64,000 bases of DNA, from NCBI RefSeq assembly GCF_000425385.1, contig NZ_KE384358.1, positions 131,623 to 195,622 of the forward strand, in the 5' to 3' direction. The notes beneath the pieces are model-generated. The model was not told the DNA's origin and made no database searches. It saw only the letters and a list, made by a program, of their open reading frames with translations. How positions within the stretch are numbered: the stretch's first letter is position 1; the number at the start of each line of letters is the position of its first letter. This stretch comes from Pseudoduganella violaceinigra DSM 15887. Its GTDB lineage: Bacteria > Pseudomonadota > Gammaproteobacteria > Burkholderiales > Burkholderiaceae_D. This document shows, in pieces, positions 28,429 through 58,529 of this stretch. The position numbers were made by a program, and so were the translations under genes.

Positions 28429-28455
28429 GACGGCTGGCGCAACGCAAAATCGACA
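28429..28455 (-). promoter_or_regulatory. Predicted ECF42-type promoter (TGTCGA-N17-CGTC)
   Basis: Read on the minus strand, TGTCGA occupies 28455-28450 and CGTC 28432-28429, exactly 17 bases apart. The start codon is 34 bases beyond. The same boxes and the same spacing occur at 54394-54420. Confidence 0.7.
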
Positions 28456-28492
28456 AAGCGCGACGGCCGGCGCCGGGAATCTATACTGGCAT

Positions 28493-29254
28493 ATGGTCAG
28501 CGCCACATTCCGTTTCTACGAAGAACTAAACGACTTCCTGCCGCGCGCACGTCGCAAGGTGGCGTTCACCGTGCCCTGCGCGCGCGCCGCCACCACCAAG
28601 CACATGATCGAAGCCCTGGGCGTGCCGCATACCGAGGTGGAGCTGATCCTGGTCAACGGCGAATCGTCGGGTTTCGAGCGCCCGCTGTGCGATGGGGACC
28701 GCGTGGCAGTCTATCCCAAATTCGAGCGCTTCGACGTACGCCCGCTATTGCGCGTGCGCGGCGAACCGCTGCGCACCGTACGCTTTGTCGCCGATGCCCA
28801 CCTGGGCGGCCTGGCGCGCCTGCTGCGCATGGCCGGCTTCGATACGCTGTACGACAACCGCATCGACGATCCGACGGTGGCGTCCCTGTCGCAGGACGAG
28901 GGCCGCATCGCCCTGACCCGCGACCGCGATCTGCTGAAACGGCGCGGCATCACGCATGGCTGCTATGTGCGGGCCTTGAAACCCGCCCTGCAGTTTGCCG
29001 AGATCTTCCAGCGGCTGGACCTGGCGGCCAGCGCCCGGCCATTCACCCTATGCCTGGCATGCAACGCCCCGCTGCAGCCCGTTGCCAAGGCCGAGGTGGC
29101 GGCGCAACTGCCGCCATCGGTGCGCGCCGCCCACGATGCATTCCTGACCTGCGATGTCTGCCGCGGCGTCTTCTGGCGCGGCTCGCACTGGCGCCGCATG
29201 CAGGTGCTGCTGGCCAGCCAGGGCGTGGCTGGCGGCGAGCGGGAGTCCTGCTAG
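28493..29254 (+). CDS. Mut7-C RNase-domain protein with N-terminal ubiquitin-like domain
   Basis: 253 aa from ATG 28493. Residues 1-85 match the Mut7-C ubiquitin/ThiS-like domain (ELILVNGESSGFERPLCDGD, then VAVYPKFE). The rest is the Mut7-C PIN-like RNase domain: VADAHLGGLARLLRMAGFDT, LTRDRDLLKRR, and a C-terminal zinc ribbon with paired cysteines (CLACN and CDVCRGVFWRG). Probably a small cytosolic RNA-cleaving protein; bacterial roles are poorly known. Stand-alone gene between a VOC gene and a pseudogene. Confidence 0.88.
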   Translation: MVSATFRFYEELNDFLPRARRKVAFTVPCARAATTKHMIEALGVPHTEVELILVNGESSGFERPLCDGDRVAVYPKFERFDVRPLLRVRGEPLRTVRFVADAHLGGLARLLRMAGFDTLYDNRIDDPTVASLSQDEGRIALTRDRDLLKRRGITHGCYVRALKPALQFAEIFQRLDLAASARPFTLCLACNAPLQPVAKAEVAAQLPPSVRAAHDAFLTCDVCRGVFWRGSHWRRMQVLLASQGVAGGERESC

Positions 29255-29283
29255 AATCGCCGATTTGCATTGCTGGCAATTCC

Positions 29284-29941
29284 ATGCACCTGTCCCTGGC
29301 TTTTCTGTTCGCCCTGCTGCCGCTCGCCGCCCACGCCGCATCCAGCCAACGCATCCAGCGCGTCGAACATGGCTTGCGCGGTCCGGTAGCCTGCCTCGAC
29401 GCGGCAAATGACGACGCCCGTGCTGGGCGGTTACGGTCTGGGCATGGAGCTCGATCATGACGGACCGCAAGCGGTATTTGGGCACAGCGGTTCCAACCTG
29501 GGCTACAAGGCCATGCTGTTTGCCTATGCGGAAGCCGGCAAAGGCGCCGTCATCATGACCAACGGCGATTATGGCGGCATGCTCATTGACGAGATCCTGC
29601 GCGCCATCGCGGCCGAATATGGCTGGCCCGACTACCGCCAGCGCGAGAAGGCTGCGGTGGCTTATCCAGCCCACCTGGAACGCTATGCCGGCGACTACAG
29701 CGTGGGCGGCCTGCCGCTGCATGTCACGGCACAGGACGGCAAACTGTTTGTCGAGGCGGCGCCGCTCGGACCGCAAAAACTGGAATTGATTCCAGAGAGC
29801 GAAGAGCGCTTCTTCATGCGCGAGAAAGACTCCACCTTGACCTTTGTCCTGCATGGCGCAGCACCGGTGGCGGAAATATCGTTCTTCGATTTCGGCCGCG
29901 CCCGCCCCGGCCAGCGGATCGGCGCCCCGCCGACGCCTTAG
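29284..29941 (+). pseudogene. Serine hydrolase (class C beta-lactamase-like) gene with internal deletion
   Basis: ATG 29284 starts a convincing signal peptide (MHLSLAFLFALLPLAAHAA) and the usual opening of this family (SSQRIQRVEHGLRGPV), but after about 30 codons the frame runs out of homology. A different frame from about 29408 to 29941 encodes the C-terminal part: GYGLGMELDHDGPQAVFGHS, the HxG-type motif (FGHSGSN) and a terminal beta-rich domain. The catalytic SxxK and YxN motifs are missing, so several hundred codons were deleted and the frame shifted. The remaining C-terminus could still be expressed from ATG 29408, but catalysis is not possible. Confidence 0.75.
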
Positions 29942-30044
29942 AGGCCGTTTCAACATGGCCATGGCCTTGTCGCAGGTCCTTGCCGTGCAAGCGCACTGCC
30001 TTCGTCGCCGCGCCTAGCCACGCCCATGTTGGAACAGCCTCTTA
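29938..30044. repeat. About 106-bp element with terminal inverted repeats, copy 2
   Basis: Same orientation as copy 1. The left end TTAGAGGCCGTTTCAACATG supplies the TAG stop at 29939-29941 of the pseudogene, and the right end supplies the TAA of the convergent DUF4153 gene (30042-30044). The interior is nearly identical to copy 1. Confidence 0.88.
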
Positions 30045-31862
30045 GTGCGCGGCCGCGGGCTGGGCGCAGTCCGGCGCCGCGTCGGACGGGGCCAGCACGA
30101 TGCGCTGGCCACCGGTTTCGATATCGCGCAGATGCGGTTCGGCCAGGGTGAAGTCGCCGGCGCGCAGGCGTTGCAGGATGCCGGCGCATCCCGCCAATTG
30201 CACTGGCGGCCGCGCCACCACCTGCCAGGCGCCGCCGCGCTCGGCCAGCAGCACGGCGCCGTCGCCGCGCGTCGTCCCCACCAGCAGCACGTCCGGCCGG
30301 CCATCCCCGTCGGCATCCAGCACGAACGCATCGCATTTGCTGCCCGCCCGGCGCAGGCAGCCCGGCATCATGCCGGGAAGCTGGGCGGGCGCCCAATCCT
30401 GCCGTAGAAAGCCCGCCGGCAATTGCGCCCCGGACGGCCACACATCCAGGTTGGCGGCAATATCGGCGGGCGCGGACGATACGGCGCCTGAGGGGTCCTC
30501 ATAGCGCTGGCGCAAGGCGCTGGCGGCGCGGGTACGCACCAGGTCCGCATGCTTGCCGGCGCCGCGCGCTGCCAGTTCCTGCAGCGCCTCCATGCCGTAG
30601 CGCGCGCCGTGGAAGCGCAGGAAACCATAGTCGAATTTCTCGGCCGGGGTGGCGCCCTGCTCCAGGCGCGCCACCTGGTCGCTCACAGCGATGCGGGCCG
30701 GGTCGGCGACCGGGGTGAACAAGGCAAACGACACGGCCAGCGTCAGCAGCGCCGCGGCCTGGTTCACCCGGCGCAGGCCGTCCAGCCAGGGGTCGCCGCG
30801 GTGCGCGGCCGCCAGCGCATAGCCGCCCGCATAAAACAAGGCGAGCAGCAGGCAGGCGGCGGCCAGCACGCGATCCATGGTCCAGCCATAGTCGCCCACC
30901 CGCAGCCCGAGCGCGTGCGCGCCCAGCAGCACCAGCGGCAGCAACAGCAGGCAGGCCAGGCGGGCGGCCAGGCGCACGCTGCGCGCCAGCCCGGCCGCCG
31001 CATCGCCGGCCTGGAACGCCGCGTTCACCAGCACCACCAGCACGGCGCAGCTGGCCAGCAGCACGGCCGTGGCGTGGCGCGTTTGCCACAATGCCTGCAG
31101 GCCTGTGAACGGCAGCGCGGCCAGGAAGCCGCCCTCCAGCAGCACGGCGATCGGCAGTATCCAGGCCATCAGCACCAGCAGCAGGCTGCGGATGCCGCGC
31201 ACGATGGCGGGCCGCACGTCGGTGGTGTGCATGGCGCTGGAGAACGCCAGGCACACCAGCGGTACGGAGAACCACGATTGCCGCAGCAGCTCTTCAAGGA
31301 AATGCAGGTTCAACAGGGCGAACAGGGCCGCGCCCAGCCACATCACCAGCCACACGGCAGCGACGAACATGGCGGAAAACGACAGCTGGATGGCCAGCTT
31401 CCATGCGCTTTCGAAGCAGGTGGCGTAATGGGCGATGCGGCGCCGGTCCTGCGCGCCGGCCAGCACCAGGCTGTGGGCAATGAAGAAGAAGCCCAGGCAA
31501 AAGGGGAATACCAGCAGCGAGGGCCGCCGTTGCGGGGCCAGATCGAGCGCGCTGCGCCACGCCTCGTGCATGCCGGTGACGGCCAGCACCGCGGCCGCGG
31601 CGCCCAGCCAGCGCAGCAGCGGACGCCGCTCCAGGTGGCCCAGGCTGGAAATCAGCAGGACCGGCAGCAGGACGCCACTCAGCACCAGTGGAAAAAACAG
31701 GCCCGGATGACTGGCCGGCCAAGCCCCGGCCTGCAGGGCGTGGTACAGGAAATACAGCAGTCCGCCCTGCGCCAGGCCGACGGCGAGGCGCAACCGCCCC
31801 ACGCGTCCGGTGACGGCGGCATCGCGTACGGCAAGCTCCGTGTCGGTGAGCGAGGCGTCCAT
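30042..31862 (-). CDS. DUF4153-type polytopic membrane protein
   Basis: 606 aa from ATG 31862; a TTG 8 codons upstream is possible. About ten to twelve hydrophobic segments fill the first 400 residues, ending around FYAGGYALAAAH, and match the DUF4153 family. The last 200 residues are soluble, with FDYGFLRFHGARYGMEAL and an FG-GAP/EF-like segment DADGDGRPDVLLVGTTRGDG near residue 515. Function unknown; family members are inner-membrane proteins. The C-terminal end is set by the TIR element. Confidence 0.78.
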   Translation of the reverse strand: MDASLTDTELAVRDAAVTGRVGRLRLAVGLAQGGLLYFLYHALQAGAWPASHPGLFFPLVLSGVLLPVLLISSLGHLERRPLLRWLGAAAAVLAVTGMHEAWRSALDLAPQRRPSLLVFPFCLGFFFIAHSLVLAGAQDRRRIAHYATCFESAWKLAIQLSFSAMFVAAVWLVMWLGAALFALLNLHFLEELLRQSWFSVPLVCLAFSSAMHTTDVRPAIVRGIRSLLLVLMAWILPIAVLLEGGFLAALPFTGLQALWQTRHATAVLLASCAVLVVLVNAAFQAGDAAAGLARSVRLAARLACLLLLPLVLLGAHALGLRVGDYGWTMDRVLAAACLLLALFYAGGYALAAAHRGDPWLDGLRRVNQAAALLTLAVSFALFTPVADPARIAVSDQVARLEQGATPAEKFDYGFLRFHGARYGMEALQELAARGAGKHADLVRTRAASALRQRYEDPSGAVSSAPADIAANLDVWPSGAQLPAGFLRQDWAPAQLPGMMPGCLRRAGSKCDAFVLDADGDGRPDVLLVGTTRGDGAVLLAERGGAWQVVARPPVQLAGCAGILQRLRAGDFTLAEPHLRDIETGGQRIVLAPSDAAPDCAQPAAAH

Positions 31863-31921
31863 GGGCCGATCATAGCCCGTTGTCAATTTTGCAGCAATGC
31901 CACCGTTGCGCGGTGTCGCTA

Positions 31922-31927
31922 TATAAT
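31922..31927 (+). promoter_or_regulatory. Candidate -10 box for the dapC-dapD operon
   Basis: Perfect TATAAT in a GCTATATAATC context, 26 bases before the dapC ATG. No good -35 box at 16-18 bases was found, so support is partial. Confidence 0.45.
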
Positions 31928-31953
31928 CAATAGCTCAACCAGCCGTAAGCGCC

Positions 31954-33171
31954 ATGAATCCACATCTAGACAAGCTGCAGTCGTACCCGTTTGAGAAGCT
32001 GCGCCAACTGTTCGCCGGCAGCACGCCCAACCCCGCATTCAAGCCGATCAGCCTGGGCATGGGCGAGCCCAAACACCCCACCCCGGCCTTCATCCGCCAG
32101 GCGCTGGTGGACAACCTGGACGGACTGGCCTGCTATCCTGTGACCGCCGGTAGCGAGGCGCTGCGCAACGCCATCGCTTCCTGGCTGGAGCGCCGCTACG
32201 GCCTGCCGCCGCTGGACCGCGCCACCCAGGTGCTGCCGGTGAACGGCTCGCGCGAAGCGCTGTTCTCCTTCGCGCAAACCGTGATCGCCCCCGATACCGG
32301 CGCGCTGGTGATGTGCCCCAACCCGTTTTACCAGATCTATGAAGGCGCGGCGTTCCTGGCCGGCGCCGAACCGTATTTCGTCAATTCCGATCCGGCCCGC
32401 AATTTCGCGCCGGATTACGACAGCGTGCCGGAAGAAGTCTGGCAGCGCGTACGCCTGCTGTTCATTTGCTCGCCGGGCAACCCGACCGGCGCGGTGCTGA
32501 CGCTGACCGACTGGGAAAACCTGTTCGCCCTGTCCGAACGGTATAACTTCATCATCGCCGCCGACGAGTGCTATTCGGAGATTTACCATGGCGCTGAGCC
32601 GCCGCTGGGCGCCATGCAGGCCGCCCATATCCTGGGCCTGACCAGGGCCGGCGAGCCGTACGCGCGCCTGGTGGTGTTTTCCAGCCTGTCCAAGCGCTCC
32701 AACGTGCCGGGCATGCGCTCGGGCTTCGTGGCCGGCGACGCGCAAGTGCTCAAGCAATACCTGCTGTACCGTACCTACCACGGCAGCGCCATGGGCCCGC
32801 ATGTGCAGGCCGCCTCGGTCGCCGCCTGGGACGACGAAACCCACGTCGAGGAAAACCGCGCCCAGTACCGCGCCAAGTTCGCCGCCATCACGCCCCTGAT
32901 TCAGGAAGTGCTGGACGTGCAAATGCCGGACGCCAGCTTCTACCTGTGGGCCGACGTCAGCCGCACCGGCCTGTCCGACACCGAATTCGCCCGCCGCCTG
33001 CACGCCGAGTACAATGTCACTGTGCTGCCGGGTAGCTACCTGGCACGCGACGCCCACGGCAGCAACCCGGGCCGCAACCGCATCCGCATGGCGCTGGTTG
33101 CCGAAACCGGGGAAGGCCTGGAAGCGGCGCGCCGTATTGTCCAATTCTGCCATCAACTAAACAAACCATGA
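31954..33171 (+). CDS. dapC: N-succinyldiaminopimelate aminotransferase DapC
   Basis: 405 aa fold-type I aminotransferase converting N-succinyl-2-amino-6-oxopimelate to N-succinyl-LL-2,6-diaminopimelate in lysine and peptidoglycan synthesis. [31 protein letters not shown] and [15 protein letters not shown] (PLP lysine at about 247) fit the DapC branch. It overlaps dapD by ATGA, so the two are translationally coupled; dapE lies 10 kb away in the same direction. A TATAAT box precedes it. Confidence 0.94.
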
Positions 33172-33989
33172 GCATCCAGCAAATCATTGAAACCGCGTGG
33201 GATAACCGCGCCGAGATCAACCCGTCCAACGCCAGCGCCGACGTGCGCGACGCCGTCAGCCAGGTGCTGGCCGGCCTGGACAACGGCGCGCTGCGCGTCG
33301 CCCAGAAGGAAAACGGCGCCTGGGTCGTCAACCAGTGGATCAAGAAGGCCGTGCTGCTGTCCTTCCGCCTGGAGAACAACGTGGTCATGCCATCCGACGG
33401 CACCATGCAGTTCTACGACAAGGTTCCTACCAAGTTCGCCAACTACTCGGCGGAAGACTTCGCCAAGGGCGGCTTCCGCGTGGTGCCGCCGGCGGTGGCG
33501 CGCCGCGGCTCCTTCATCGGCAAGAACGTGGTGCTGATGCCGTCCTACGTCAATATCGGCGCCTACGTCGACGAAGGCGCGATGGTCGACACCTGGGCCA
33601 CCGTGGGCTCCTGCGCGCAGATCGGCAAGAACGTGCACCTGTCCGGCGGCGTGGGCATCGGCGGCGTGCTGGAACCGATGCAGGCCAATCCGACCATCAT
33701 CGAAGACAACTGCTTCATCGGCGCCCGCTCCGAGATCGTGGAAGGCGTGATCGTCGAGGAAAACTCGGTGATTTCGATGGGCGTGTACATCGGCCAGTCG
33801 ACCAAGATTTACGACCGCACCACCGGTGAAGTATTCTATGGCCGTGTGCCGGCAGGTTCCGTGGTGGTGTCGGGCTCCCTGCCGTCGGCCGACGGCAAGT
33901 ACAACCTGTACTGCGCCGTGATCGTCAAGCGCGTGGATGCACAGACCCGCGCCAAAACAGGCATTAACGAACTGCTGCGCGGCGTTTAA
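33168..33989 (+). CDS. dapD: Tetrahydrodipicolinate N-succinyltransferase DapD
   Basis: 273 aa left-handed beta-helix acyltransferase that succinylates tetrahydrodipicolinate, the first step of the succinylase lysine route. An N-terminal helical domain ([12 protein letters not shown], then YDKVPTKF) is followed by hexapeptide repeats from about 110 ([20 protein letters not shown], then [18 protein letters not shown]). Length and order match E. coli DapD (274 aa). Second gene of the dapC-dapD unit. Confidence 0.96.
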
Positions 33990-34002
33990 GCCCCGCAGAC
34001 CC

Positions 34003-34026
34003 GGGTCCGGCACTTGGGCCGGACCC
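34003..34026 (+). other. GC-rich stem-loop between dapD and pilU
   Basis: GGGTCCGG (34003-34010) pairs with CCGGACCC (34019-34026) around an 8-base loop; no T run follows. It resembles the cores of the GTCAG palindromes and may be a diverged member or a processing site. Confidence 0.5.
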
Positions 34027-34061
34027 TGCCCGACCGGGCTTAAAAAGGAGATACAAAAAAA

Positions 34062-35201
34062 ATGGCAATGGACCGCCTGTTCCAGCTGATGAAGGAAAAA
34101 AACGCCTCGGACATGTTTTTCGCCGTAGGCTCGCCGGTGCACCTGAAGATCAACGGCATCCTGATCCCGATCAACCAGCAAAAGCTTGAGCCCGAAAACC
34201 TGCTCGCCCTGCTGGCCGAAGTCTGCTCGCCCGAACAGATGGAAGAACTGGAAAACACCAGTGAGCTGAACATGGGTATCTCCATGGCCAACCTGGGCCG
34301 CTTCCGTCTGTCGGCGTTCCGCCAGCGCGGCAGCATTTCCGCCGTGTTCCGTTTCGTCCCGGCCGCCATTCCGCCGCTGGGCGAACTGGGCCTGCCGCCG
34401 GTACTGGCCGACCTGATCATGGAAAAACGCGGCCTGGTGCTGCTGGTCGGCGCCACCGGCTCGGGCAAGTCCACCACCATCGCCTCCATGCTGGACCACC
34501 GCAACGAACTGCGTTCGGGCCACATCCTGACGCTGGAAGACCCGATCGAATACCTGTTCCGTAACAAGAAGTCGATCGTCAACCAGCGCGAAATCGGCAG
34601 CGACGCCAAGGACTTCTACACCGCCCTGCGCAACTCGATGCGCCAGGCGCCCGATTGCATCCTGATCGGCGAAATCCGCGACCGCGAGACCATGGCCGCC
34701 GCGATGGCTTACTCGCAGTCGGGCCACCTGGTGTTGGCGACCCTGCACGCGAACAACTCCTACAATGCGCTGAACCGCATCATCTCCTTCTACCCGATCG
34801 AGAACCGCCCAGCGCTGCTGCAGGATTTGTCGTCGTCGGTGAAGGCTATCGTGTCGCAGCGATTGATCCGCTCAGCCGGCGGTGGCACACGCACGCCTGC
34901 GGTCGAGATCATGGTGAACACGCGCTACATTTCCGACCTGATCGAAAAAGGCGAAATCGGCCAGATCAAGGAAGCGCTGGAAAAGTCGCTCTCGCCGGGC
35001 TCCCAGTCCTTCGAGCAGGCCCTGTACAAGCTGGTGATGGAAGGCACGATCACCAAGGACGAAGCGCTGGCCAACGCGGATTCGGCCACCAACTTGCTGT
35101 GGCTGCTGAACCACGGCCTGGAAGCGCCGCCGCCAACCACGGAAGAAGAGCTGCAGACGCCGACCGACGCTTCTTTCACCGAGTTCACGCTGAATTCCTG
35201 A
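34062..35201 (+). CDS. pilU: Type IV pilus retraction ATPase PilU
   Basis: 379 aa PilT/PilU-type AAA-like ATPase. Walker A GATGSGKST at about 130-138, Asp box and Walker B region (DCILIGEIRDRETM), the His-box (HLVLATLHANNS). The N-terminus MDRLFQLMKEKNASDMFF and the extra C-terminal tail after SATNLLWLLN point to PilU rather than PilT. It assists retraction of type IV pili for twitching, DNA uptake or surface sensing. AAGGAG at 34045-34050 is the ribosome-binding site. The pilT partner is not in the window. Confidence 0.93.
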   Translation: MAMDRLFQLMKEKNASDMFFAVGSPVHLKINGILIPINQQKLEPENLLALLAEVCSPEQMEELENTSELNMGISMANLGRFRLSAFRQRGSISAVFRFVPAAIPPLGELGLPPVLADLIMEKRGLVLLVGATGSGKSTTIASMLDHRNELRSGHILTLEDPIEYLFRNKKSIVNQREIGSDAKDFYTALRNSMRQAPDCILIGEIRDRETMAAAMAYSQSGHLVLATLHANNSYNALNRIISFYPIENRPALLQDLSSSVKAIVSQRLIRSAGGGTRTPAVEIMVNTRYISDLIEKGEIGQIKEALEKSLSPGSQSFEQALYKLVMEGTITKDEALANADSATNLLWLLNHGLEAPPPTTEEELQTPTDASFTEFTLNS

Positions 35202-35210
35202 CCCCTCTGA

Positions 35211-35248
35211 GCCGCGGCAGGAACTTCCTGTTCCTGCCGCGGTCTTAT
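35211..35248 (+). terminator. Strong terminator after pilU
   Basis: Perfect 13-bp stem CCGCGGCAGGAAC / GTTCCTGCCGCGG with a 5-base loop, then TCTTATCT. Confidence 0.85.
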
Positions 35249-35590
35249 CTCCTGCCCTGTGGCCCGTCCTATTTAGGGCTCCTTGGCTCAAAGATGCTCA
35301 AACTTGCATAACCTTGTTTAAAGTTGCTTAAAGCTGCTTAAAGCTGCTTATTGCAGCCTCGTTTTGCCCTATTGTTGCTCGTTCCGATCATTTTCTTGCT
35401 CGTTTTTGCTCATTTCCACTCGAGTTCCCGCGCAAAAATTGTTCCATGCGCCGAGTCATTTCGAGCATAAACGAGAAGTTTCAAGAGAAATCGAGCGCGA
35501 AATAAGTCAGTTCGAGCAAGTATTTAGCAGCAATTAGCACGATTATTGCGATTCGAGCCGGTTTAAGGAGAATTTGCGAAGGAGCGCAAA
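35249..35590. other. AT-rich spacer with clusters of TTGCTCG / CGAGCAA motifs and GCTTAAA tandem repeats
   Basis: About 340 bases, clearly richer in A and T than the flanks. At 35325-35350 GCTTAAA-type units repeat in tandem with a 10-base period. TTGCTCGTT is at 35375 and 35396, TTGCTCATT at 35406; to the right the reverse form occurs as TCGAGCA (35461), TCGAGCG (35491), TCGAGCAA (35512) and TCGAGCC (35553). The layout is an inverted arrangement of sites around about 35440. No ORF, RNA gene or mobile element was recognised. Confidence 0.7.
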
Positions 35591-35998: not shown

Positions 35999-36059
35999 CT
36001 TACGCAGGGCATGCGATGAGGTATGATCGGAATTTCATATCAACAAGAATTCCGCCCCC

Positions 36060-37619: not shown

Positions 37620-37621
37620 CC

Positions 37622-38457: not shown

Positions 38458-38511
38458 CCTATTTGCAATGCACCCGGCGCGCAACCGCTGAAAGCCGCGC
38501 CACACTTTCCC

Positions 38512-38558
38512 CCCAAAAAAAACGTGCGCCGCCTGCCTTATCGGCAAGCGGCGCACGC
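38512..38558 (-). terminator. Terminator of the TonB receptor gene
   Basis: On the minus strand GTGCGCCGC and GCGGCGCAC (38548-38556 and 38524-38532) form a stem with a partly paired loop, followed by a run of eight T (plus-strand A at 38515-38522). Confidence 0.88.
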
Positions 38559-38577
38559 AGTGGTCAAGCCCTATCGA

Positions 38578-49619: not shown

Positions 49620-49626
49620 TGTACGG

Positions 49627-51516
49627 CTAGGCTACACCGGCCTCAACCTGGGCGGCGCCCTGCCAGTTGACGCTGCCATGGGCGCCGGCAAAGATGGCCT
49701 GGCTGTCGCCCCGCGGGCCGCGCAGCAGGGCCTTATAGTCCTTGGGCTGCCCCATGAAATGGGCGGCCGCCGCTTCGCCCAGGGGCAAGGTGCGCACCAG
49801 CACTTCGCCGTCGACCATGCTGATGCGCACCGAGGAACGGACCGCCGCCTCACGCGTCAGGGCCTCCAGCGCGTCGCGCCGGGCGCGGGCCCCGCTCAGG
49901 GCCTCCTCGCCCAGCTTGATCGATTGCAGCAGCTGGCCGAGCGCCTTGATCTGCGGCGCCACCGCGGCCGCCACCTTTTTCAGATGCGGCACCTGGGCCG
50001 GGGTCAGGTGGATCTCGCCCTTGCGCAGCTTTTCCGTCAGCGTCAGGTAACTGCGCACCTCGGCCAATCCGTTCAGGCGCGCGTGCTCGGCGCTCCAGGC
50101 GGCGATTTTCGCCGCGTGCCCGGCCACCTCGTGTTGCAGCGCCGCCAGCTCGGCCTCATGGCCGGCGACGTCGTTCACCACCACGTAGACGAACATTTCG
50201 GTGCTCTTGCGCGGGCCGGCGCTTTCAATCGCCACGCTGCGCCCGGCGACGGCGCAGCCGATGGCCAGTTCCATGACGACTTCGTCGGCAAAGATCTCGC
50301 AATTGGAGGCCTCCGCGATCACCACCCTGGGGGCGCTGATCACGCAGCTTTCGGCCCGGCCCTTGATGGTCACGGTGCCGCAGGCGGTTTGGATGGCCGC
50401 CCCCGACGCCACGCCGTCGACGCGAATATCGCCTTTGGCGTTGATCGCCTTGCCGCCCACCAGGTTGCGGCCCAGGATGATGGTGCCGCCGCTGGAGTGG
50501 ATATTGCCGAACACATCGCCGTGCACGGTGATGTCGCTGCCGTTAACGTCGCGCAGCTCCTGCACGTCGCCAAATTCCTCGAAAGCGCCCATCAGCTCCA
50601 GGTTGCCGGTGGTGCGCCCCGACACCCCTTCGCGGCTGATGATCTTGTCGCTCAGCGCCACCTGACCGCTCTTCGGGTCCACATTCAGGAAGCCTTCGCG
50701 CGCCGCCACCAGGAACTCGCCGTCCGGCTCGCGCGCGATCAGGGTACCCTCGCCGGCAAAGCGGGCGAAATCAACGTCCTTGGGCGCCAGCGCGGCCAGC
50801 GGCTGGCCAGCGATATTGCGGCCCGGCGCGCCCGGCACGCCGGGCAGCTTTTGCAGCAGGCGCATGCCCTGCTTGATCTGCGGGAAGCGGTTCTGGAAGC
50901 TGGTCAGGTCGACCGTGCCGTCGGCGCGCTGGCGCGGCGCGTCGCTGCGGTGCAGTTCGGCAGCCAGCTCCACCACGCGCGCATCCTGCGCCGGGGTCGG
51001 CTCCAGCTCGAGCGCGGCGGCCACCCGCTCGCCCTTGGGCGCGGCCAGGGCGGCGCGGATGGCCGCCACCTGCAGGCCGAAACGCACATTCTTTTGCCAC
51101 ATATCGGCGACGAACTCGTCGAAGTCGAGCTGGGCCTGGCGCTCGGGCAGCAAGGTGCCGTCCGGCAACTCCTCGGCCGGCAGGAAAATCGGTTCAAAGA
51201 AGTATTCGGCCTCGCCGTCGCGCAGCTTGACGTTGCGGTACAGGGACTTGCGCAGGGCCGGGAACGGCTCCAGCCGCTCGGCCACGCGCAGCAGCAGGTC
51301 GGCGCTGGGCGCCAGCTCCGGCCCCACGCCGTACAGGGCGCGCGCCAGCACCGGGTAATCCAGGCCGCGCAGCACCAGGCCGCCGCGGAACAGGGCATCG
51401 ACCGCGGCGGTCAGTTCGGGCGCCAGCAGGCGCGCGTCGAGAAAGACGCCATCGGGTCGCCGGACCACGCCGGCCGGCAGCGTGCCGGTGTCATCCTGTA
51501 ATGCGGTGTGGGACAA
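49627..51516 (-). CDS. FapA/DUF342 polymer-forming domain protein, copy 1 (TTG start)
   Basis: 629 aa if started at TTG 51516, which has GGAGGAGGAG at the right distance ahead; a GTG at 51558 would add 14 residues without such a site, and the chosen start makes the length equal to its 630-aa paralogue. Same order: N-terminal region with RADGTVDLTSFQNRFPQIKQ, solenoid (VNGSDITVHGDVFGNIHSSG), helical region, beta tail ending HGSVNW. First gene of the pair. Location in cytosol or at the membrane is not certain as no signal peptide is present. Confidence 0.83.
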   Translation of the reverse strand: MSHTALQDDTGTLPAGVVRRPDGVFLDARLLAPELTAAVDALFRGGLVLRGLDYPVLARALYGVGPELAPSADLLLRVAERLEPFPALRKSLYRNVKLRDGEAEYFFEPIFLPAEELPDGTLLPERQAQLDFDEFVADMWQKNVRFGLQVAAIRAALAAPKGERVAAALELEPTPAQDARVVELAAELHRSDAPRQRADGTVDLTSFQNRFPQIKQGMRLLQKLPGVPGAPGRNIAGQPLAALAPKDVDFARFAGEGTLIAREPDGEFLVAAREGFLNVDPKSGQVALSDKIISREGVSGRTTGNLELMGAFEEFGDVQELRDVNGSDITVHGDVFGNIHSSGGTIILGRNLVGGKAINAKGDIRVDGVASGAAIQTACGTVTIKGRAESCVISAPRVVIAEASNCEIFADEVVMELAIGCAVAGRSVAIESAGPRKSTEMFVYVVVNDVAGHEAELAALQHEVAGHAAKIAAWSAEHARLNGLAEVRSYLTLTEKLRKGEIHLTPAQVPHLKKVAAAVAPQIKALGQLLQSIKLGEEALSGARARRDALEALTREAAVRSSVRISMVDGEVLVRTLPLGEAAAAHFMGQPKDYKALLRGPRGDSQAIFAGAHGSVNWQGAAQVEAGVA

Positions 51517-51653
51517 AGCTCCTCCTCCAGTGCCCTGAGTATGGGCGCGCCCGGGCACATTGTCTTGCGGGCAATCAATATTACACGCAAAACATCAAAT
51601 TTCGGAGGCTTTTGGCGCCAGGCGCTTGCTTGGCGTTACGTAAATGTCACACT

Positions 51654-52001
51654 TCAGCGCCGCGGCGGCAGGGAATAGACCTGTTGGCCCGCCTCATTGA
51701 TCTGGCGGCGCAGGTCGCGGCGTTCGTCGGGGGTCATGCGGCCCATGCGGCGCGAGGCGTCGCCGTTATCGCGGTATTCTTCCATGCGGCGCCGTTCTTC
51801 CTGGCGCGCTTCGCGGGCTTCATACTGGCGCGCGTCCCGCTCTTCGGCCCAGCGGTTGTCGCGCCGCGCTTCCCTTGGCTGCGGCTGAATGTTCTGCCGT
51901 TCCGACTGCGCCTGCGCGCTGGCCGCCAGGGTGCAGCACAGGCTGGCGCACAATGCTGCCGCAGCCGCTTTGCCCAATCCCATTTTTGCACCAAGTTTCA
52001 T
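51654..52001 (-). CDS. Small secreted, highly charged protein of unknown function
   Basis: 115 aa from ATG 52001. Signal peptide (MKLGAKMGLGKAAAAALCAS onward, ending SAQAQ), then an Arg/Glu-rich helical region (EERDARQYEAREARQEERRR) and the ending MTPDERRDLRRQINEAGQQV. Small Burkholderiales proteins with this MTPDERR ending are common and probably periplasmic; function unknown. Divergent from ompR. Confidence 0.72.
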   Translation of the reverse strand: MKLGAKMGLGKAAAAALCASLCCTLAASAQAQSERQNIQPQPREARRDNRWAEERDARQYEAREARQEERRRMEEYRDNGDASRRMGRMTPDERRDLRRQINEAGQQVYSLPPRR

Positions 52002-52186
52002 CGCGGTCCTCGTCGTACTAGCCGTATCCATGCCCGCAGTGTATGCGCTCCCACTATCGATAGTAAGTGCGGCGGGGTAAAGTTTGTAAGAATTTGTAAT
52101 GAGTTTTCACCGGTATGGCGCCGGCGCTGAATATGACGTTACCATAGCGACATGCATCTGACAATTCAACAAGCTCACACTCCCCT

Positions 52187-52951
52187 ATGAATACCACCAC
52201 TACCCCTCCAGCGGCCGCCGGCGGCCAGTCGGGCCACCAGGCCAAGATCATGGTGGTGGACGACGACGTCCGCCTGCGCGACCTGTTGCGCCGCTACCTG
52301 ACCGAGCAAGGCTTCAACGTCGTCACCGCCGAAAACGCCACCGCCATGAACAAGCTGTGGCTGCGCGAGCGCTACGACCTGCTGGTGCTGGACCTGATGC
52401 TGCCCGGCGAAGACGGCCTGTCGATCTGCCGCCGCCTGCGCGGCGCCGGCGACCAGACCCCGATCATCATGCTGACCGCCAAGGGCGAGGACGTGGACCG
52501 CATCGTCGGCCTGGAAATGGGCGCCGACGACTACCTGCCCAAGCCCTTCAATCCGCGCGAGCTGGTGGCCCGCATCGGCGCCGTGCTGCGCCGCAAGCAG
52601 CCCGACGAAATCCCGGGTGCGCCGTCGGAACATCCGCAATCGTTCGAGTTCGGCCAGTTCGTGCTGGACCTGGGCACCCGCACCCTGAAAAAGAACGGCG
52701 AGACCGTGCCCCTGACCACCGGCGAATTCTCGGTGCTGAAAGTGTTTGCGCGCCATGCGCGCCAGCCGCTGTCGCGCGAAAAGCTGATGGAACTGGCGCG
52801 CGGCCGCGAGTACGAGGTGTTCGACCGCAGCCTGGACGTGCAGATTTCCCGCCTGCGCAAGCTGATCGAGCCGGACCCGTCCAGCCCGCTGTACATCCAG
52901 ACCGTGTGGGGCCTGGGCTATGTCTTCATCCCTGAGGGCCAGCCACGCTGA
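52187..52951 (+). CDS. ompR: Response regulator OmpR
   Basis: 254 aa: receiver domain (about 20-135; DDD acidic pocket at 25-27, phospho-Asp69 in LVLDLMLPGEDG, Lys in PKPFNPREL) and OmpR-type winged helix (about 155-248; LTTGEFSVLKVF, DVQISRLRKLIE, VWGLGYVF). High resemblance to OmpR itself; controls outer-membrane and envelope genes with the next kinase. Start preceded by CTCCCCT-type spacer without strong SD. Confidence 0.93.
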   Translation: MNTTTTPPAAAGGQSGHQAKIMVVDDDVRLRDLLRRYLTEQGFNVVTAENATAMNKLWLRERYDLLVLDLMLPGEDGLSICRRLRGAGDQTPIIMLTAKGEDVDRIVGLEMGADDYLPKPFNPRELVARIGAVLRRKQPDEIPGAPSEHPQSFEFGQFVLDLGTRTLKKNGETVPLTTGEFSVLKVFARHARQPLSREKLMELARGREYEVFDRSLDVQISRLRKLIEPDPSSPLYIQTVWGLGYVFIPEGQPR

Positions 52952-52964
52952 TTCCGCACCGCCG

Positions 52965-54311
52965 ATGACATTCCGCCTGCCGCGCCCGGCGTCGCTGACC
53001 AGCGGCCTGTTCTGGCGCACCTTCCTGTTGCTGAGCGTGCTGACCACGCTCTCCATGTCCGCCTGGTTCGGCATGGTCAACTACGTCCAGCGCGAACCGC
53101 TGGCGCAGCAGACCGCCGCCCAGGTGGTGTCGGTGGTCACCATCACGCGTGCCGCCCTGACCCACTCCGCCACCGACCTGCGGCGCGAGCTGCTGTTCGA
53201 GCTGGTGTCGAACGAAGGCATCCGCGTCTTCACCATGGAAGACGACGACGAGGTTGCCGCGGCGCCGAACACCGGGCTGATGGCCGATATCCAGAGCCTG
53301 GTCAAGGCCAAGCTGGGCCCGGACACCCGCTTTTCCTCGGAAGTGAACGGCGTGCCCGGCTACTGGGTCAGCTTCAAGATCGCCGATGACCGCTACTGGC
53401 TGATGCTCGAGCGCGAGCGCCTGCAGGGCCCGGTTGAGTGGCTGGGCTGGGCCGGCGTGGTATCCGTGGTGTCCCTGCTGGGCGCGGCCCTGATTTCCAG
53501 TCTGATCAACCTGCCGCTGCAACGCCTGACCGCCGCCGCCCGCGAAATCGCCCAGGGCCGCCGGCCCGAACCGCTGCCCGAAGTCGGCCCGCAGGAAGTG
53601 CGCCAGGCCAACCGCTCCTTCAACCAGATGGTGGACGACCTGCAGCAGGTCGAATCGGACCGCGCCGTGATCCTGGCCGGCATTTCGCACGACCTGCGCA
53701 CCCCGCTGGCGCGCATGCAGCTGGAAGTGGAAATGGCCAACCTGTCGCAGGAGGCGCGCGAAGGCATGCAGTCCGATATTGCGCAGATGGATGCCATCAT
53801 TGCCCAGTTCCTGGACTACGCCAAGCCGACTGAAGCGGCCAGCTTCATCAATGTGAATATGGCTGAGCTGCTATCGGACTGCGCGCATGAAGCGGGCCGG
53901 CACGCCGATGTGACGGTGACGGCGGAGCTGCCGGAACACGCCCATGTGCTGGGCAATGCCACCGACCTCAAGCGCGTAATCGCCAACCTGGTGGAAAACG
54001 CGCGGCGCTACGGCAAGACGCCCGGTTCCGACCTGGCCGAGATCGATATCAAATGCAGCGTGCGCGGCATGCATACCGCCAAGCGGGTGGTGGTGGAGGT
54101 GCAGGACCATGGCGTCGGCGTGCCAGAGGACCAGATTGCGCAGCTGCTGAAGCCGTTTACCCGGCTCGATACGGCGCGCGGGCAGGCCAATGGGGCGGGC
54201 CTGGGGCTGGCGATTGTCGACCGCGTGCTGTCACGCCATGAGGCTGAGCTGGAGGTTGCCAACCGGGAAGGTGGCGGGCTCAAATTTACGATCACCTTGC
54301 GGGCGCTTTAA
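52965..54311 (+). CDS. envZ: Osmosensing-type histidine kinase EnvZ
   Basis: 448 aa from ATG 52965; an alternative ATG at 52920 would overlap ompR by 32 bases. Two transmembrane helices (about 20-40 and 160-180) enclose a periplasmic domain, then HAMP (NLPLQRLTAAAREIAQGRRP), dimerisation box with His242 (GISHDLRTPLARMQLEVEM) and ATPase motifs N (NLVENARRYG), G1 (DHGVGVPEDQ) and G2 (GAGLGLAI). Kinase/phosphatase for the adjacent OmpR. Confidence 0.93.
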   Translation: MTFRLPRPASLTSGLFWRTFLLLSVLTTLSMSAWFGMVNYVQREPLAQQTAAQVVSVVTITRAALTHSATDLRRELLFELVSNEGIRVFTMEDDDEVAAAPNTGLMADIQSLVKAKLGPDTRFSSEVNGVPGYWVSFKIADDRYWLMLERERLQGPVEWLGWAGVVSVVSLLGAALISSLINLPLQRLTAAAREIAQGRRPEPLPEVGPQEVRQANRSFNQMVDDLQQVESDRAVILAGISHDLRTPLARMQLEVEMANLSQEAREGMQSDIAQMDAIIAQFLDYAKPTEAASFINVNMAELLSDCAHEAGRHADVTVTAELPEHAHVLGNATDLKRVIANLVENARRYGKTPGSDLAEIDIKCSVRGMHTAKRVVVEVQDHGVGVPEDQIAQLLKPFTRLDTARGQANGAGLGLAIVDRVLSRHEAELEVANREGGGLKFTITLRAL

Positions 54312-54393
54312 AACCGCCTGCCCAGCCATCGGGCTTGCCGCTTCCAGGCCTTGCCTCGACCGGAAATGGCCGGGATAAAAAATTTTGTAATCG

Positions 54394-54420
54394 TGTCGAT
54401 CTGGCGCCGCGCCGTTCGTC
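54394..54420 (+). promoter_or_regulatory. Predicted ECF42-type promoter (TGTCGA-N17-CGTC)
   Basis: TGTCGA at 54394-54399 and CGTC at 54417-54420, spacer 17. It lies 60 bases ahead of the VOC gene that opens the YciI operon. Known ECF42 promoters have TGTCGA in the -35 region and CGA/TC in the -10 region. Same motif and spacing as 28455-28429. Confidence 0.75.
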
Positions 54421-54480
54421 GTGGGAATATGGAGGCCGCAGATAGCGTCCTCTTTCCTCAACTACGAATGGAGAATGACC

Positions 54481-54963
54481 ATGACTGTCAAAGCGATCCC
54501 AGAAGGTATGCGCACGATCACCCCTCACCTCGTTTGCGAGGGCGCCGCCGCCGCCATTGATTTCTACAAGAAAGCGTTCAATGCCGTCGAAAATTCCCGC
54601 ATGCCGGCGCCGGACGGCCGCATCATGCACGCCCAGATCCAGATTGGCGACTCCGTCATCATGCTGGTCGACGATTTCCCCGACCATGGCTGCTTCGGTC
54701 CCAAGAAACTGAATGGCACGCCGGTCACGATCCATCTGTATGTGCCCGACGTGGACGCGACCTACGCCCAGGCCGTCAAGGCCGGCGCCACGGCCAAGAT
54801 GCCGCCGGCCGACATGTTCTGGGGCGACCGCTACGGCGTGCTGATCGATCCGTTCGGCCATTCCTGGTCCGTCGCCACCCACAAGCGCGACCTGACGCCC
54901 GAACAGATGGAACAGGGCATGAAGGAAATGATGAGCAACGCGCCCGACTGCGCCAAAGCGTGA
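54481..54963 (+). CDS. PhnB-like VOC protein, first gene of the YciI operon
   Basis: 160 aa from ATG 54481 with GGAG 7 bases ahead. PhnB-type VOC domain: ITPHLVCEGAAAAIDFYKKA, IGDSVIMLVDDFPDHGCFGP, HLYVPDVDATYAQAVKAGAT, and FWGDRYGVLIDPFGHSWSVA. Second PhnB-like gene of this window. Such proteins are regular companions of YciI/DGPF proteins and ECF42 sigma factors. Three genes here are closely spaced (17 and 11 bases). Confidence 0.9.
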   Translation: MTVKAIPEGMRTITPHLVCEGAAAAIDFYKKAFNAVENSRMPAPDGRIMHAQIQIGDSVIMLVDDFPDHGCFGPKKLNGTPVTIHLYVPDVDATYAQAVKAGATAKMPPADMFWGDRYGVLIDPFGHSWSVATHKRDLTPEQMEQGMKEMMSNAPDCAKA

Positions 54964-54980
54964 GGAAAGGAACAGCCACC

Positions 54981-55406
54981 ATGCGATTCATGCTCATCGT
55001 AAAAGCCACCCCGGAATCCGAGGCCGGCAAGATGCCCAAAACCGAACTGCTTGAAGCGATGGGCAAGTTCAACGAAGAACTGGTCAACGCCGGCGTGCTG
55101 CTGGCCGGCGAAGGCTTGCACCCCAGCTCGCGCGGCGCCCGCGTGCATTTCTCGGGCAGCCAGCGCACCGTGGTCGACGGCCCGTTCTCGGAAACCAAGG
55201 AACTGATCGCCGGCTTCTGGCTGATTCAGGTAAAGTCGCTGGCCGAAGCCATCGAATGGGTCAAGCGCTGCCCCAATCCGATGGAAAGCGACTCCGATAT
55301 TGAAATCCGCCAGGTCTTCGAGGCCGAGGATTTCGGCGCCGAATTCACGCCCGAACTGCGTGAACAGGAAGCGCGTATCGCCAGCAAAATCGCAGCGCCT
55401 GTTTAA
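54981..55406 (+). CDS. YciI/DGPF-domain protein
   Basis: 141 aa from ATG 54981 with GGAAAGGAA ahead. Single YCII domain, MRFMLIVKATPESEAGKMPK, with the diagnostic DGPFSETKELIAGFWLIQ (DGPF motif). Fold of dimeric alpha-beta barrels; catalytic role unknown. DGPF proteins are the main genomic partners of ECF42 sigma factors. Confidence 0.92.
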   Translation: MRFMLIVKATPESEAGKMPKTELLEAMGKFNEELVNAGVLLAGEGLHPSSRGARVHFSGSQRTVVDGPFSETKELIAGFWLIQVKSLAEAIEWVKRCPNPMESDSDIEIRQVFEAEDFGAEFTPELREQEARIASKIAAPV

Positions 55407-55417
55407 AGGAGAGTGAG

Positions 55418-56110
55418 ATGCAGTACATGGTCATCCGCAAGGCCGACGCCACGTCGGAACTGGACAGCTTCCCGTCCGCTGAACTGGTGCAGGCCGTGCC
55501 GGGGGCCAAGTGGCTGCGTCCCAGCGCCGACGGCGGCCTGCGCATGCGCCGCCGCGACGGGCAATGGCTGTACGAGGAAGGCCCGTTCGCCGACGTCAGC
55601 GTGGCCGGCTTCACCTTCATCGAGGCGGAAGACCGCCGCGCCGCCAGCGAACTGGCGGCGCGCTGGCCCTCGGCCGATGCCGAAGGCAGCGCCACGGTCG
55701 AAGTGCGCGAAGCCGGCTGTCCCGGCGGCTGCGTCGGCTTCGACACCGGCAAGGCGCCGCAGCATGGCGCCTGGGCCATCCTGCTGCGCTCGGACCCGGT
55801 GGCGGAGCAGGATCTCGAACCGCCCACCGTGGTGATCGACATCATGAACCGCGCCAACAACGCCGGCATCGCGGCCGGGATTGCGCTGTCCGGCGAGGGG
55901 CTGAAGTCCACCGCGCGCGGCGCGCGCGTCCAATTCAGCGGCGGCAAGCCCTTGATCACCGACGGTCCCTTCGCCGAAGTGAAGGAACTGATCGCCGGCT
56001 ATTGGGCGCTCGACGTGGCGACGCGCGACGCGGCGATTGCCTGGGTCAAGTCCTATCCCTACCCTCACCCGGGCGATATGGAAGTGGAGCTGCGCAAGGT
56101 CGCGCTCTAA
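55418..56110 (+). CDS. Two-domain YciI/DGPF protein
   Basis: 230 aa with AAAGGAGAG just ahead. The second half (about 112-230) is a normal YCII domain with DGPFAEVKELIAGYWALD. The first half (QYMVIRKADATSELDSFPSA, EEGPFADVSVAGFTFIEAED) is a diverged YCII domain with EGPF in place of DGPF. A fusion of this kind could form an intramolecular dimer. The TAA stop lies at the edge of the third copy of the 106-bp TIR element. Confidence 0.85.
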   Translation: MQYMVIRKADATSELDSFPSAELVQAVPGAKWLRPSADGGLRMRRRDGQWLYEEGPFADVSVAGFTFIEAEDRRAASELAARWPSADAEGSATVEVREAGCPGGCVGFDTGKAPQHGAWAILLRSDPVAEQDLEPPTVVIDIMNRANNAGIAAGIALSGEGLKSTARGARVQFSGGKPLITDGPFAEVKELIAGYWALDVATRDAAIAWVKSYPYPHPGDMEVELRKVAL

Positions 56111-56213
56111 GAGGCCGTTTCAACATGGGCGTGGCTAGGCGCAGCGACGAAGGCAGTGCGCCTGCACGGCAAGCAGCTGCCACATCGCCATGGCCGTTTT
56201 GAACGGCCTCTAA
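56108..56213. repeat. About 106-bp element with terminal inverted repeats, copy 3 (inverted)
   Basis: Same ends (TAAGAGGCCGTTTCAACATG and AACGGCCTCTAA) but the interior is in the opposite orientation to copies 1 and 2 (GCGTGGCTAGGCGCAGCGAC first). It carries the TAA of the YciI gene at 56108-56110 and the TAG of the LacI gene at 56210-56212. Confidence 0.88.
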
Positions 56214-57214
56214 GCGCGCGCCGCGGTGGAAGCGCGCAGCACCAGCTGCGCGTTGATCACCGTCAGCGCTTCGGCTTGGTTGCCCTCGATGGTGGCGATC
56301 AGTTTCCGCATCGCCGCCGCCCCCATATGCTCGCTGTGCAGGTCCACGCTGGTGAGCGCCGGCGAGGCGAAACTGCCGAACTGGATATTGTCGAAGCCGA
56401 CCACGGAGATATCTTCCGGCACGCGGAAGCCCAGCACCTGCGCGGCTTTCATGAAGCCCAGCGCCAGCAGGTCGTTGAAGCAAACCAGGGCATCGGGCGG
56501 CTGGCGGCCCAGCAGGATCGCGGAACACAGCTTCTCTCCGGCCGCGGCCGTCGGCGCTTCGGCATCGAACACATTCAGCTCCAGTCCCTGCGCATCGAGG
56601 GCCTCGCGCACGCCCGCCATGCGCTCGCGGTCGCGGCGCGAATTGGAGAATCCCATATAGGCGTAACGCTGGTGGCCTTGCGACAGCAAATGGCGCGTGA
56701 CCATGTACGCCCCCAGCTGGTCGTCGCTGGCCACGGCGGGCAGCTTGATCAGGTCCGGGCGGCCGAAAAATACCGCGGGACGATCCAGGGCCAGCAGCCA
56801 TCCCAGCTCTTCCTCCGGGGTGCGCGAGTAGACGATCATGCCATCCACCCGGCGGCTCAAGGCTTCCAGCAACTGGCGTTCGCGCTCCGGGGTTTCCTCG
56901 GTGTCGACCAGGAGCAAGGTGTAGCCATGGTCCTGCGCCACGCGGTTGGCGCCTTTCACCACGCTGGCGTAATGGGGATTCGTGATATCGAGCACCGACA
57001 GGCCGATGGCCTTGGTGCGGCCGGTGATCATCGACTGCGCCATCGGGTTGGAGCGGTAGCCCAGTTCCTCGATCACGCTGGAAATGCGGGCCTCGACGGC
57101 CGGCGAGAAGCGCTGCGTAGCGTTGACGAACTTGGAAACCGTGGCGGTGGAGACGCCTGCGGCGGCCGCCACATCCCGGATGGTCGCTACGCTCTTCTTC
57201 ATCGGACGTGTCAT
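56210..57214 (-). CDS. LacI/GalR-family transcriptional regulator
   Basis: 334 aa from ATG 57214 (or 57202). Helix-turn-helix and hinge (ATIRDVAAAAGVSTATVSKF, then IEELGYRSNPMAQS), then a periplasmic-binding-type effector domain (TKAIGLSVLDITNPHYASVV, DISVVGFDNIQFGSFASPAL). No sugar genes nearby, so target unknown; may act on the divergent sigma gene. It lies between the YciI operon and the ECF42 sigma gene, which usually stand together. Confidence 0.9.
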   Translation of the reverse strand: MTRPMKKSVATIRDVAAAAGVSTATVSKFVNATQRFSPAVEARISSVIEELGYRSNPMAQSMITGRTKAIGLSVLDITNPHYASVVKGANRVAQDHGYTLLLVDTEETPERERQLLEALSRRVDGMIVYSRTPEEELGWLLALDRPAVFFGRPDLIKLPAVASDDQLGAYMVTRHLLSQGHQRYAYMGFSNSRRDRERMAGVREALDAQGLELNVFDAEAPTAAAGEKLCSAILLGRQPPDALVCFNDLLALGFMKAAQVLGFRVPEDISVVGFDNIQFGSFASPALTSVDLHSEHMGAAAMRKLIATIEGNQAEALTVINAQLVLRASTAARA

Positions 57215-57272
57215 TATTGTAAAAGTTGTCGAGTGTATCACGCGATGCCGGCCATGGTGGTAAAGTGGCGGC

Positions 57273-58529
57273 ATGAACGACAACAGCATCCACCGCGCCA
57301 TCGACGCCGTCTGGCGCATTGAAGAAGCGAAGATCATCGCCGTCCTGACGCGCATGCTGCGCGACGTGGCGCTGGCCGAGGAAATGGCGCAGGACGCGCT
57401 GGTCAGCGCGCTGGAAACCTGGCCGGAAAACGGCACGCCCGACCGCCCGGCCGCCTGGCTGATGCAGGCGGCCAAGAACAAGGCGCTCGACTACCTGCGC
57501 CACCAGAAACTGGTGCGGGAAAAAGAACCCGAACTGACTTACGAAATTGAAGGCTTGCTGCAGGACGCCGCGCCCGACCTGGAACGCGAGCTGGACGACA
57601 ATATCGGCGACGACCTGCTGCGCCTGATCTTCATCTCCTGCCACCCGGTGCTGACCATGGAGGCGCGCGTGGCCCTGACCCTGCGCCTGCTGGGCGGCCT
57701 CACCACCGACGAAATCGCACGCGCCTTCCTCGCCTCGGAAACCACGGTGGCGCAGCGCATCGTGCGCGCAAAACGCACCCTGGGCGAGGCCAAGGTGCCG
57801 TTCGACGTGCCGCGCGGCGCCGAGCTGGAGGAGCGCCTGGGCGCCGTGCTGCAAGTGATCTACCTGGTCTACAACGAAGGCTATTCCGCCAGCGCGGGCA
57901 CCGACTTGATGCGCCCCGCCCTGTGCAACGAAGCGCTGCGTCTGGGGCGCATCCTGGCCGAACTGGCGCCGGGCGAGCCGGAGGTGCATGGACTGGTGGC
58001 GCTGATGGAAATCCAGTCGTCCCGCTTGCGCGCCCGCACCGACGCGCAAGGCAAGCCGGTGCTGCTGCTGGAGCAGGACCGCACACGCTGGGACCAGTTG
58101 CTGATCCGGCGCGGGCTGGCGGCGCTGGAACGCGCGCAGCGCCTCGGCCGCGTACCGGGGCCCTACCTGCTGCAGGCGGCCATCGCCTCCTGCCACGCGC
58201 GCGCGCGCCGCGCCGAGGATACGGACTGGCAGCAGATTGCGGACCTGTATTTGGCGCTGGCGACCCGGGCGCCCTCGCCCGTCGTGGAATTGAACCGTGC
58301 CGTGGCGCTTTCCATGGCGTATGGGCCGGAGGTTGGCCTGGAGCTGGTGGACCAGCTGGTCGATGAGCCGGCGCTGAAGCAGTACCACCTGCTGCCGAGT
58401 GTGCGGGGCGATTTCCTGTTCAAGCTGGCGCGGATGGCGGAGGCGCGCACGGAATTCGAGCGGGCCGCGGCCTTGACGCAGAATGAGCAGGAGAAGCAGT
58501 TGTTGCTGGCGCGGGCGGCAGCTTGCTAA
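57273..58529 (+). CDS. ECF42-type RNA polymerase sigma factor (DUF6596/SnoaL-like tail)
   Basis: 418 aa, about twice the usual ECF size. Sigma2 region (EMAQDALVSALETWPENGTP and RPAAWLMQAAKNKALDYLR) and sigma4 region (LTTDEIARAFLASETTVAQR) fill the first 185 residues; a large helical C-terminal domain (LQVIYLVYNEGYSAS, and TPR-like repeats) marks the ECF42 group, which has no anti-sigma factor and is regulated by that extension. Partners are DGPF (YciI) proteins, found here just upstream. TGTCGA at 57227 lies ahead but lacks the CGTC at the proper distance. Confidence 0.9.
   Translation: MNDNSIHRAIDAVWRIEEAKIIAVLTRMLRDVALAEEMAQDALVSALETWPENGTPDRPAAWLMQAAKNKALDYLRHQKLVREKEPELTYEIEGLLQDAAPDLERELDDNIGDDLLRLIFISCHPVLTMEARVALTLRLLGGLTTDEIARAFLASETTVAQRIVRAKRTLGEAKVPFDVPRGAELEERLGAVLQVIYLVYNEGYSASAGTDLMRPALCNEALRLGRILAELAPGEPEVHGLVALMEIQSSRLRARTDAQGKPVLLLEQDRTRWDQLLIRRGLAALERAQRLGRVPGPYLLQAAIASCHARARRAEDTDWQQIADLYLALATRAPSPVVELNRAVALSMAYGPEVGLELVDQLVDEPALKQYHLLPSVRGDFLFKLARMAEARTEFERAAALTQNEQEKQLLLARAAAC

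Follow-up and report, generated by a model that had tools for sequence, protein, structure and literature searches.

Does the ECF42-type extracytoplasmic function (ECF) sigma factor of Pseudoduganella violaceinigra DSM 15887 act solely on the small operon that neighbors it, or does it also read promoters at distant genes? The 64,000-nucleotide stretch analyzed here (contig NZ_KE384358.1, positions 131,623 to 195,622; hereafter the window) carries this sigma gene close to a VOC-YciI-YciI operon, and the original prediction proposed, from a shared TGTCGA-N17-CGTC promoter, that a PhnB-like VOC gene 26 kb from the operon belongs to the same ECF42 regulon. Our analysis indicates that the window very probably holds an ECF42 sigma factor together with two promoters that it most likely uses, within a regulon of eight predicted promoters. 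The parts concerned are as follows, where the held-out model is a sequence model built from sites of other genomes:

28427..28455, minus strand: predicted ECF42 promoter TGTCGA-N17-CGTCGT of the remote VOC gene (motif; held-out model E 0.016)
27907..28395, minus strand: remote VOC-fold gene, PF06983, PhnB-like (E 7e-46), start 31 bp past the promoter
54394..54422, plus strand: predicted ECF42 promoter TGTCGA-N17-CGTCGT of the VOC-YciI-YciI operon (motif; held-out model E 0.0024)
54481..54963, plus strand: VOC/glyoxalase-fold protein, operon gene 1 (PF00903, E 6e-14), start 58 bp past the promoter
54981..55406, plus strand: YciI/DGPF-family protein (PF03795, E 2e-18, scanned minus its first residue; start taken from the open reading frame)
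55418..56110, plus strand: two-domain YciI protein, EGPF in the first domain and DGPF in the second (PF03795, two stretches)
57273..58529, plus strand: ECF42-type sigma factor with regions 2 and 4 and a DUF6596 extension (Pfam)

A pattern scan of the window returned just two matches to TGTCGA-N17-CGTC, at 28455-28429 (minus strand) and 54394-54420 (plus strand), with the same boxes and the same spacing, exactly as the original prediction had described; its statement that the other TGTCGA hexamers lack CGTC at 17 bases held as well. In both sites CGTC extends to CGTCGT, and we refer to TGTCGA-N17-CGTCGT as the strict site. By chance, 0.12 matches to the shorter pattern would be expected in the window, and none of 100 shuffles reached two. 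The identities proposed for the operon genes and the remote PhnB-like VOC gene were confirmed by Pfam domains, and the domains of the sigma factor fit the ECF42 type. Another VOC gene of the window (26673-27098, minus strand) is without a TGTCGA-N17-CGTC site.

The sigma protein matched PF04542 and PF08281 above cut-off but no region 1 or 3 model, and its C-terminal extension matched DUF6596 (E 5e-38, residues 188-288 of 418) but no TPR model; it is the one DUF6596 gene found in the genome. ECF42 sigma factors are expected to carry a TPR-rich C-terminal extension of about 200 residues, to have YciI/DGPF genes as neighbors and to use target promoters of the form TGTCG[AG] ... CG[AT]C. Two YCII genes do lie in the operon, likewise in 14 of 14 related operons chosen for comparison, and the predicted promoters agree with that form at the level of sequence. 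The two-domain YciI protein and its EGPF variant, previously singled out as unusual, turned out to be nothing unusual for this protein: the two-domain form is present in all 15 chosen operons (own included), and its first domain carries EGPF in nine of them and DGPF, QGPF, HGPF or none of these in the other six.

Across the 6.1-Mb genome (41 contigs), with the reversed pattern as control, TGTCGA-N17-CGTC occurs 21 times against 8 and the strict site seven times against one. A looser scan proposed earlier, TGTCGA-N16-18-CG[AT]C, was also run genome-wide and gave no enrichment (199 versus 180). The seven strict sites lie 31-58 bp upstream of an ATG that scores well for a ribosome-binding site, with the downstream frames picked by third-position GC content. 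They precede two GST genes (L050 and L053), a YciI gene (L051), an AHSA1/SRPBCC gene (L052), a VOC gene (L056) and, in the window, the PF06983 gene and the VOC operon; an eighth site, of the form CGTCGG, stands upstream of a further VOC gene (L066). Three of the five YCII genes of the genome are downstream of a site, two of these being the genes of the window operon. The idea of an ECF42 regulon marked by a shared motif was supported, its size having been understated: of the eight sites, six lie beyond the window.

One-mismatch variants of the strict motif do not, as a class, exceed the control (23 sites in all versus 56). Among the 16 own-genome variants inspected, the CGTCGG site before the VOC gene is the only likely member. 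One other, L064, has an AT-rich spacer and an ATG 24 bp downstream; the rest were rejected, as they lie within open frames or have no fitting gene downstream.

A sequence model built from 42 sites, own included, ranked the eight own sites first. The held-out model, built from 34 sites of other genomes that had been picked by hand before fitting genes and testing transfer between genomes rather than discovery of a motif from nothing, gave 11 hits in the own genome at E values up to 10. All eight own sites were among them, the top six hits were own sites and the promoter of the remote VOC gene ranked fifth, while the other three hits fall in long open frames.

Comparison among relatives showed that the strict sites track the sigma factor. 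In a genus sample of 74 genomes, the 63 with DUF6596 contain 237 strict sites versus 82 for the reversed control, with at least one site in each, as opposed to 4 versus 11 in the 11 genomes without DUF6596 (p 1.7e-7 for the contrast). Because an operon lost together with its sigma gene removes a site anyway, we subtracted one site per DUF6596-positive genome; the 174 that remain (mean 2.76) still exceed both the control (mean 1.30, p 2.7e-7) and the DUF6596-negative genomes (mean 0.36, p 5.7e-6). In a family sample of 145 genomes, those outside the genus gave 58 sites versus 26 in the control for the 36 with DUF6596 above cut-off, and 47 versus 56 for the 101 without it, two of which have a sub-cut-off match. 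Permuting the association between site and DUF6596 within genera gave p 0.0015 over 10 genera.

These distributions bear on the possibility that some other ECF sigma factor recognizing a CGTC-type -10 box, for instance one of the ECF41 type, is the main reader of the promoters, and that the ECF42 gene is a mere neighbor. CGTC at -10 is generally known to be used by several ECF groups, and passages of PMC6180224 give TGTCAC and CGTC boxes for the ECF41 sigma factor RpoE9 of Sinorhizobium meliloti. With such a reader, however, one would not expect the sites nearly to vanish, to below control, from the genus genomes that lack DUF6596, nor a strict site at the ECF42-linked operon, before its VOC gene, in 14 of 14 chosen related operons; we consider this explanation improbable.

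The genes behind the sites belong to few families. The other 62 DUF6596-positive genus genomes hold 230 strict sites, of which we examined 147, namely those among the matches listed plus one, L160 of genome G195, that entered through a PF06983 search; families were assigned by BLAST clusters, with Pfam scans of representatives only. A fitting family lies downstream at 120 of these 147 (VOC 82, PF06983 4, SRPBCC 20, GST 7, YciI 4 and RibD_C-like 3). The sigma-linked operon type makes up 40 of the 82 VOC cases, and with it set aside 80 of 107 sites fit. By comparison, none of 24 examined sites (of 51) in DUF6596-negative genomes, as a rule one per genome and those given loci, precedes a target family. 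Outside the genus, a VOC, YciI, SRPBCC or GST gene follows 21 of 29 examined sites (of 58), a set that leans toward the ECF42 reading, as 16 of the 29 come from the two most site-rich genomes and five from loci fetched around DUF6596.

Two further observations concern the range of families. RibD_C-like genes, a target family absent from the eight of the own genome, follow strict sites in three genus genomes (L302, L335 and L257, the last alone Pfam-scanned). In another genus, locus L348 of genome G056 has two strict sites about 1 kb apart; the genes that they precede encode an alpha/beta hydrolase and a SnoaL-like protein, and neither family turned up as a target within the own genus.

Is the remote VOC gene then a true member? 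For its 30 best genus homologues given loci, the more distant of which need not be orthologues, we inspected 150 bases upstream of each. A strict site is present in five of the 30: the own gene and those of G195 (75% identity), G177, G165 and G172. G195 retains both boxes, along with a stretch ahead of the start codon, but has a different spacer. G159, the closest homologue (88%), lacks the promoter-bearing stretch, and G148, a genome without DUF6596, retains the gene (62%) with no site. One could therefore argue that the pair in the window arose by chance and that the operon promoter alone is real, since 25 of 30 homologues, among them that of the nearest relative, lack the remote site. Against this stand the low expectation for the window, the position of the remote site 31 bp before a start codon, its retention in G195 despite the altered spacer, its recurrence before three other homologues and its fifth rank in the held-out model, and we regard a chance pair as decidedly improbable. 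That the remote gene is a regulon member, as originally predicted, is credible given its promoter distance and the conservation in G195, and this membership seems to evolve fast.

A conserved two-box element could also be the operator of a DNA-binding repressor or activator and not a promoter. The spacing, however, is fixed at 17 bases in a single orientation with no palindrome evident by eye, in the own genome a start codon follows each element within 31-58 bp, and the elements resemble the mapped ECF42 promoters of S. meliloti in the passages of PMC6180224 used here, all of which makes an operator extremely unlikely. The reading as an ECF42 regulon, larger than earlier claimed, is well supported, since the sites track DUF6596, lie at promoter distance from few families and, at the remote gene, are kept in G195; control of the sites by this very sigma factor is what we infer from these patterns.

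For S. meliloti, we take an SMb-numbered operon to lie on a different replicon from an SMc-numbered one. Upon overexpression, its ECF42 sigma factor RpoE10 raises two operons at least 2-fold, SMc01149-SMc01148 and SMb20475-SMb20474, whose products include glyoxalase-like and hydrophobic-ligand-binding proteins, and the ECF42 promoters in Table 1 have, by our count of the spacing, the form TGTCGG-N17-CGTC (PMC6180224, in the passages used). As in P. violaceinigra, the sigma gene is beside a YCII gene and one target operon is elsewhere; a remote glyoxalase-like operon under ECF42 is therefore nothing new in kind. The two systems differ in that S. meliloti has two operons and TGTCGG, whereas the own genome has eight predicted promoters with TGTCGA, and adds GST genes, more VOC and YciI targets and a lacI-type gene between operon and sigma gene.

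In Streptomyces venezuelae, whose ECF42 factors are the subject of Liu (2018), ECF42 reportedly uses TGTCGA at -35 and has mainly DGPF genes as targets; the predicted targets in P. violaceinigra, by contrast, are mostly VOC genes plus GST and SRPBCC, largely in trans. The S. venezuelae proteins Sven_0747, Sven_4377 and Sven_7131 are reported to have a TPR-rich C-terminal extension and an adjoining YCII-type gene (PMC8999054). According to passages of the same paper, the TPR-rich extension of ECF42 is essential for activity, with the YCII protein proposed as partner, and Pseudomonas putida ECF-10 belongs to the group; passages of PMC9023288 suggest that ECF42 becomes less active when its TPR domain binds a ligand, which would suppress the factor. 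No ECF42 regulon in this bacterial group is reported in the literature passages on ECF42 consulted, and other such passages hold nothing further on targets. The regulon appears to be a larger example of an already known kind.

Several observations weigh against our interpretation. The held-out model gives two of the eight own sites weak scores (E 0.56 and 1.7), and two hits inside long open frames rank between or above them. No fitting gene follows 27 of the 147 genus sites and 8 of the 29 outside in DUF6596-positive genomes, and the remote site is absent from most homologues, as described. In S. meliloti, overexpression of ECF42 did not induce its own operon, at odds with general autoregulation (PMC6180224, in the passages used). 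The p values overstate independence because the genomes are related, and the within-genus permutation has 10 strata.

Lastly, 12 DUF6596-positive genomes of two other genera contain no strict site. In one of these genera, all three genomes examined have TGTCGG-N17-CGTCGT at the YciI gene adjoining the sigma gene. In the other (g29), two of three examined have TGTCGA-N17-CGAC 15 bases past the sigma stop codon, the third having none on that strand, and this is probably that lineage's promoter form, with CGAC at -10. The TGTCGG and CGAC forms in genera without strict sites therefore suggest that the boxes vary by lineage. The two g29 sites (L366 4860-4888 and L368 4900-4928, sigma strand) share the same TGTCGATT...GGTT context, and their sigma factors are 47% identical to that of the window. 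The motif also extends beyond this bacterial group. When the 80 named ECF42 loci with the greatest similarity to the query were compared, TGTCG[AG]-N17-CGTC was present in 39 versus 2 for the control in the stretch fetched; 15 of the 39 are of the Duganella/Massilia type, leaving 24 of 65 without them, and actinobacterial ECF42 loci, judged by eye, mostly have no match to this pattern.

How is the sigma gene itself controlled? In the window it is separated from the operon by one gene:

56210..57208, minus strand: LacI/GalR-family regulator between operon and sigma gene, divergent from the sigma gene (NCBIfam LacI-type models, none matched above its curated cut-off)

In eight of the 15 chosen operons, VOC, YciI, two-domain YciI and sigma genes are consecutive on one strand with a single site before VOC, whereas the other seven (own included) have such a lacI-type gene on the opposite strand between the YciI and sigma genes. 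More broadly, 41 of the 43 genomes listed have a same-strand strict site upstream of DUF6596, at 2.2-2.5 kb in 36, as in contiguous operons, and at 3.3-4.1 kb in five, all of the lacI group. A tree of 31 genus sigma proteins and an outgroup placed the seven lacI-type ones in one clade (support 100/100).

A block around AAAG...GAGTTTATCA, partly conserved across the seven genomes, lies in the gap between lacI and sigma gene (about 50-70 bp; 57209-57272 in the window). No strict site is present in the gap, and no clear palindrome marking a LacI operator was seen by eye in the seven-genome alignment; the block may serve either as a promoter for the sigma gene or as an operator for LacI. Operon autoregulation may thus have been lost in the lacI clade, an idea against which the uninduced own operon of S. 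meliloti weighs (PMC6180224, in the passages used). The lacI-type gene between sigma gene and operon in one clade is the newer element of our findings.

We make no claim that lacI is linked with larger regulons, although the seven lacI genomes have 6-8 sites (mean 6.7) compared to a mean of 3.4 for the other 56, whose lacI status was checked for part of them. This claim was dropped because a single event is involved and because four genomes of another clade, whose one examined member has no lacI, carry 6 sites apiece. As a separate observation, a dispersed element with a 35-base core (at most 1 mismatch) has three copies in the window, at 56101-56220, 29996-30030 and 6873-6907, the first with inverted arms and sitting between the convergent YciI and lacI genes.

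We propose that RNA polymerase with the ECF42 sigma factor would read TGTCGA (-35) and, after 17 bases, CGTCGT (-10) at eight scattered promoters. One belongs to the VOC-YciI-YciI operon, three to other VOC genes (the remote PF06983 gene included), two to GST genes, and one each to a lone YciI gene and an SRPBCC (AHSA1) gene. The C-terminal extension would gate sigma activity, perhaps with a YciI partner, and the products, judged by their families, may deal with small molecules of a reactive or toxic nature, by detoxifying or sensing them. The operon of most relatives apparently ends with the sigma gene, which would permit self-activation; in the own clade lacI separates the two, and the sigma gene would therefore need its own promoter and may answer to LacI. 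More tentatively, and as a scenario that we think possible rather than probable, ECF42 in Duganella, Pseudoduganella and Massilia may have changed from a self-activating operon regulator to a dispersed one, with promoters gained and lost before the same few small-enzyme families, and the lacI insertion of one clade may have severed sigma gene from operon, a separate promoter, maybe under a metabolite-sensing LacI, replacing positive autoregulation.

The combination of VOC, YciI, SRPBCC and GST proteins under eight predicted promoters points to the handling of small reactive or toxic compounds. These promoters would offer readouts for inducer screening, and the wiring of the regulon becomes testable through relatives that differ in whether they carry the sigma gene or lacI.

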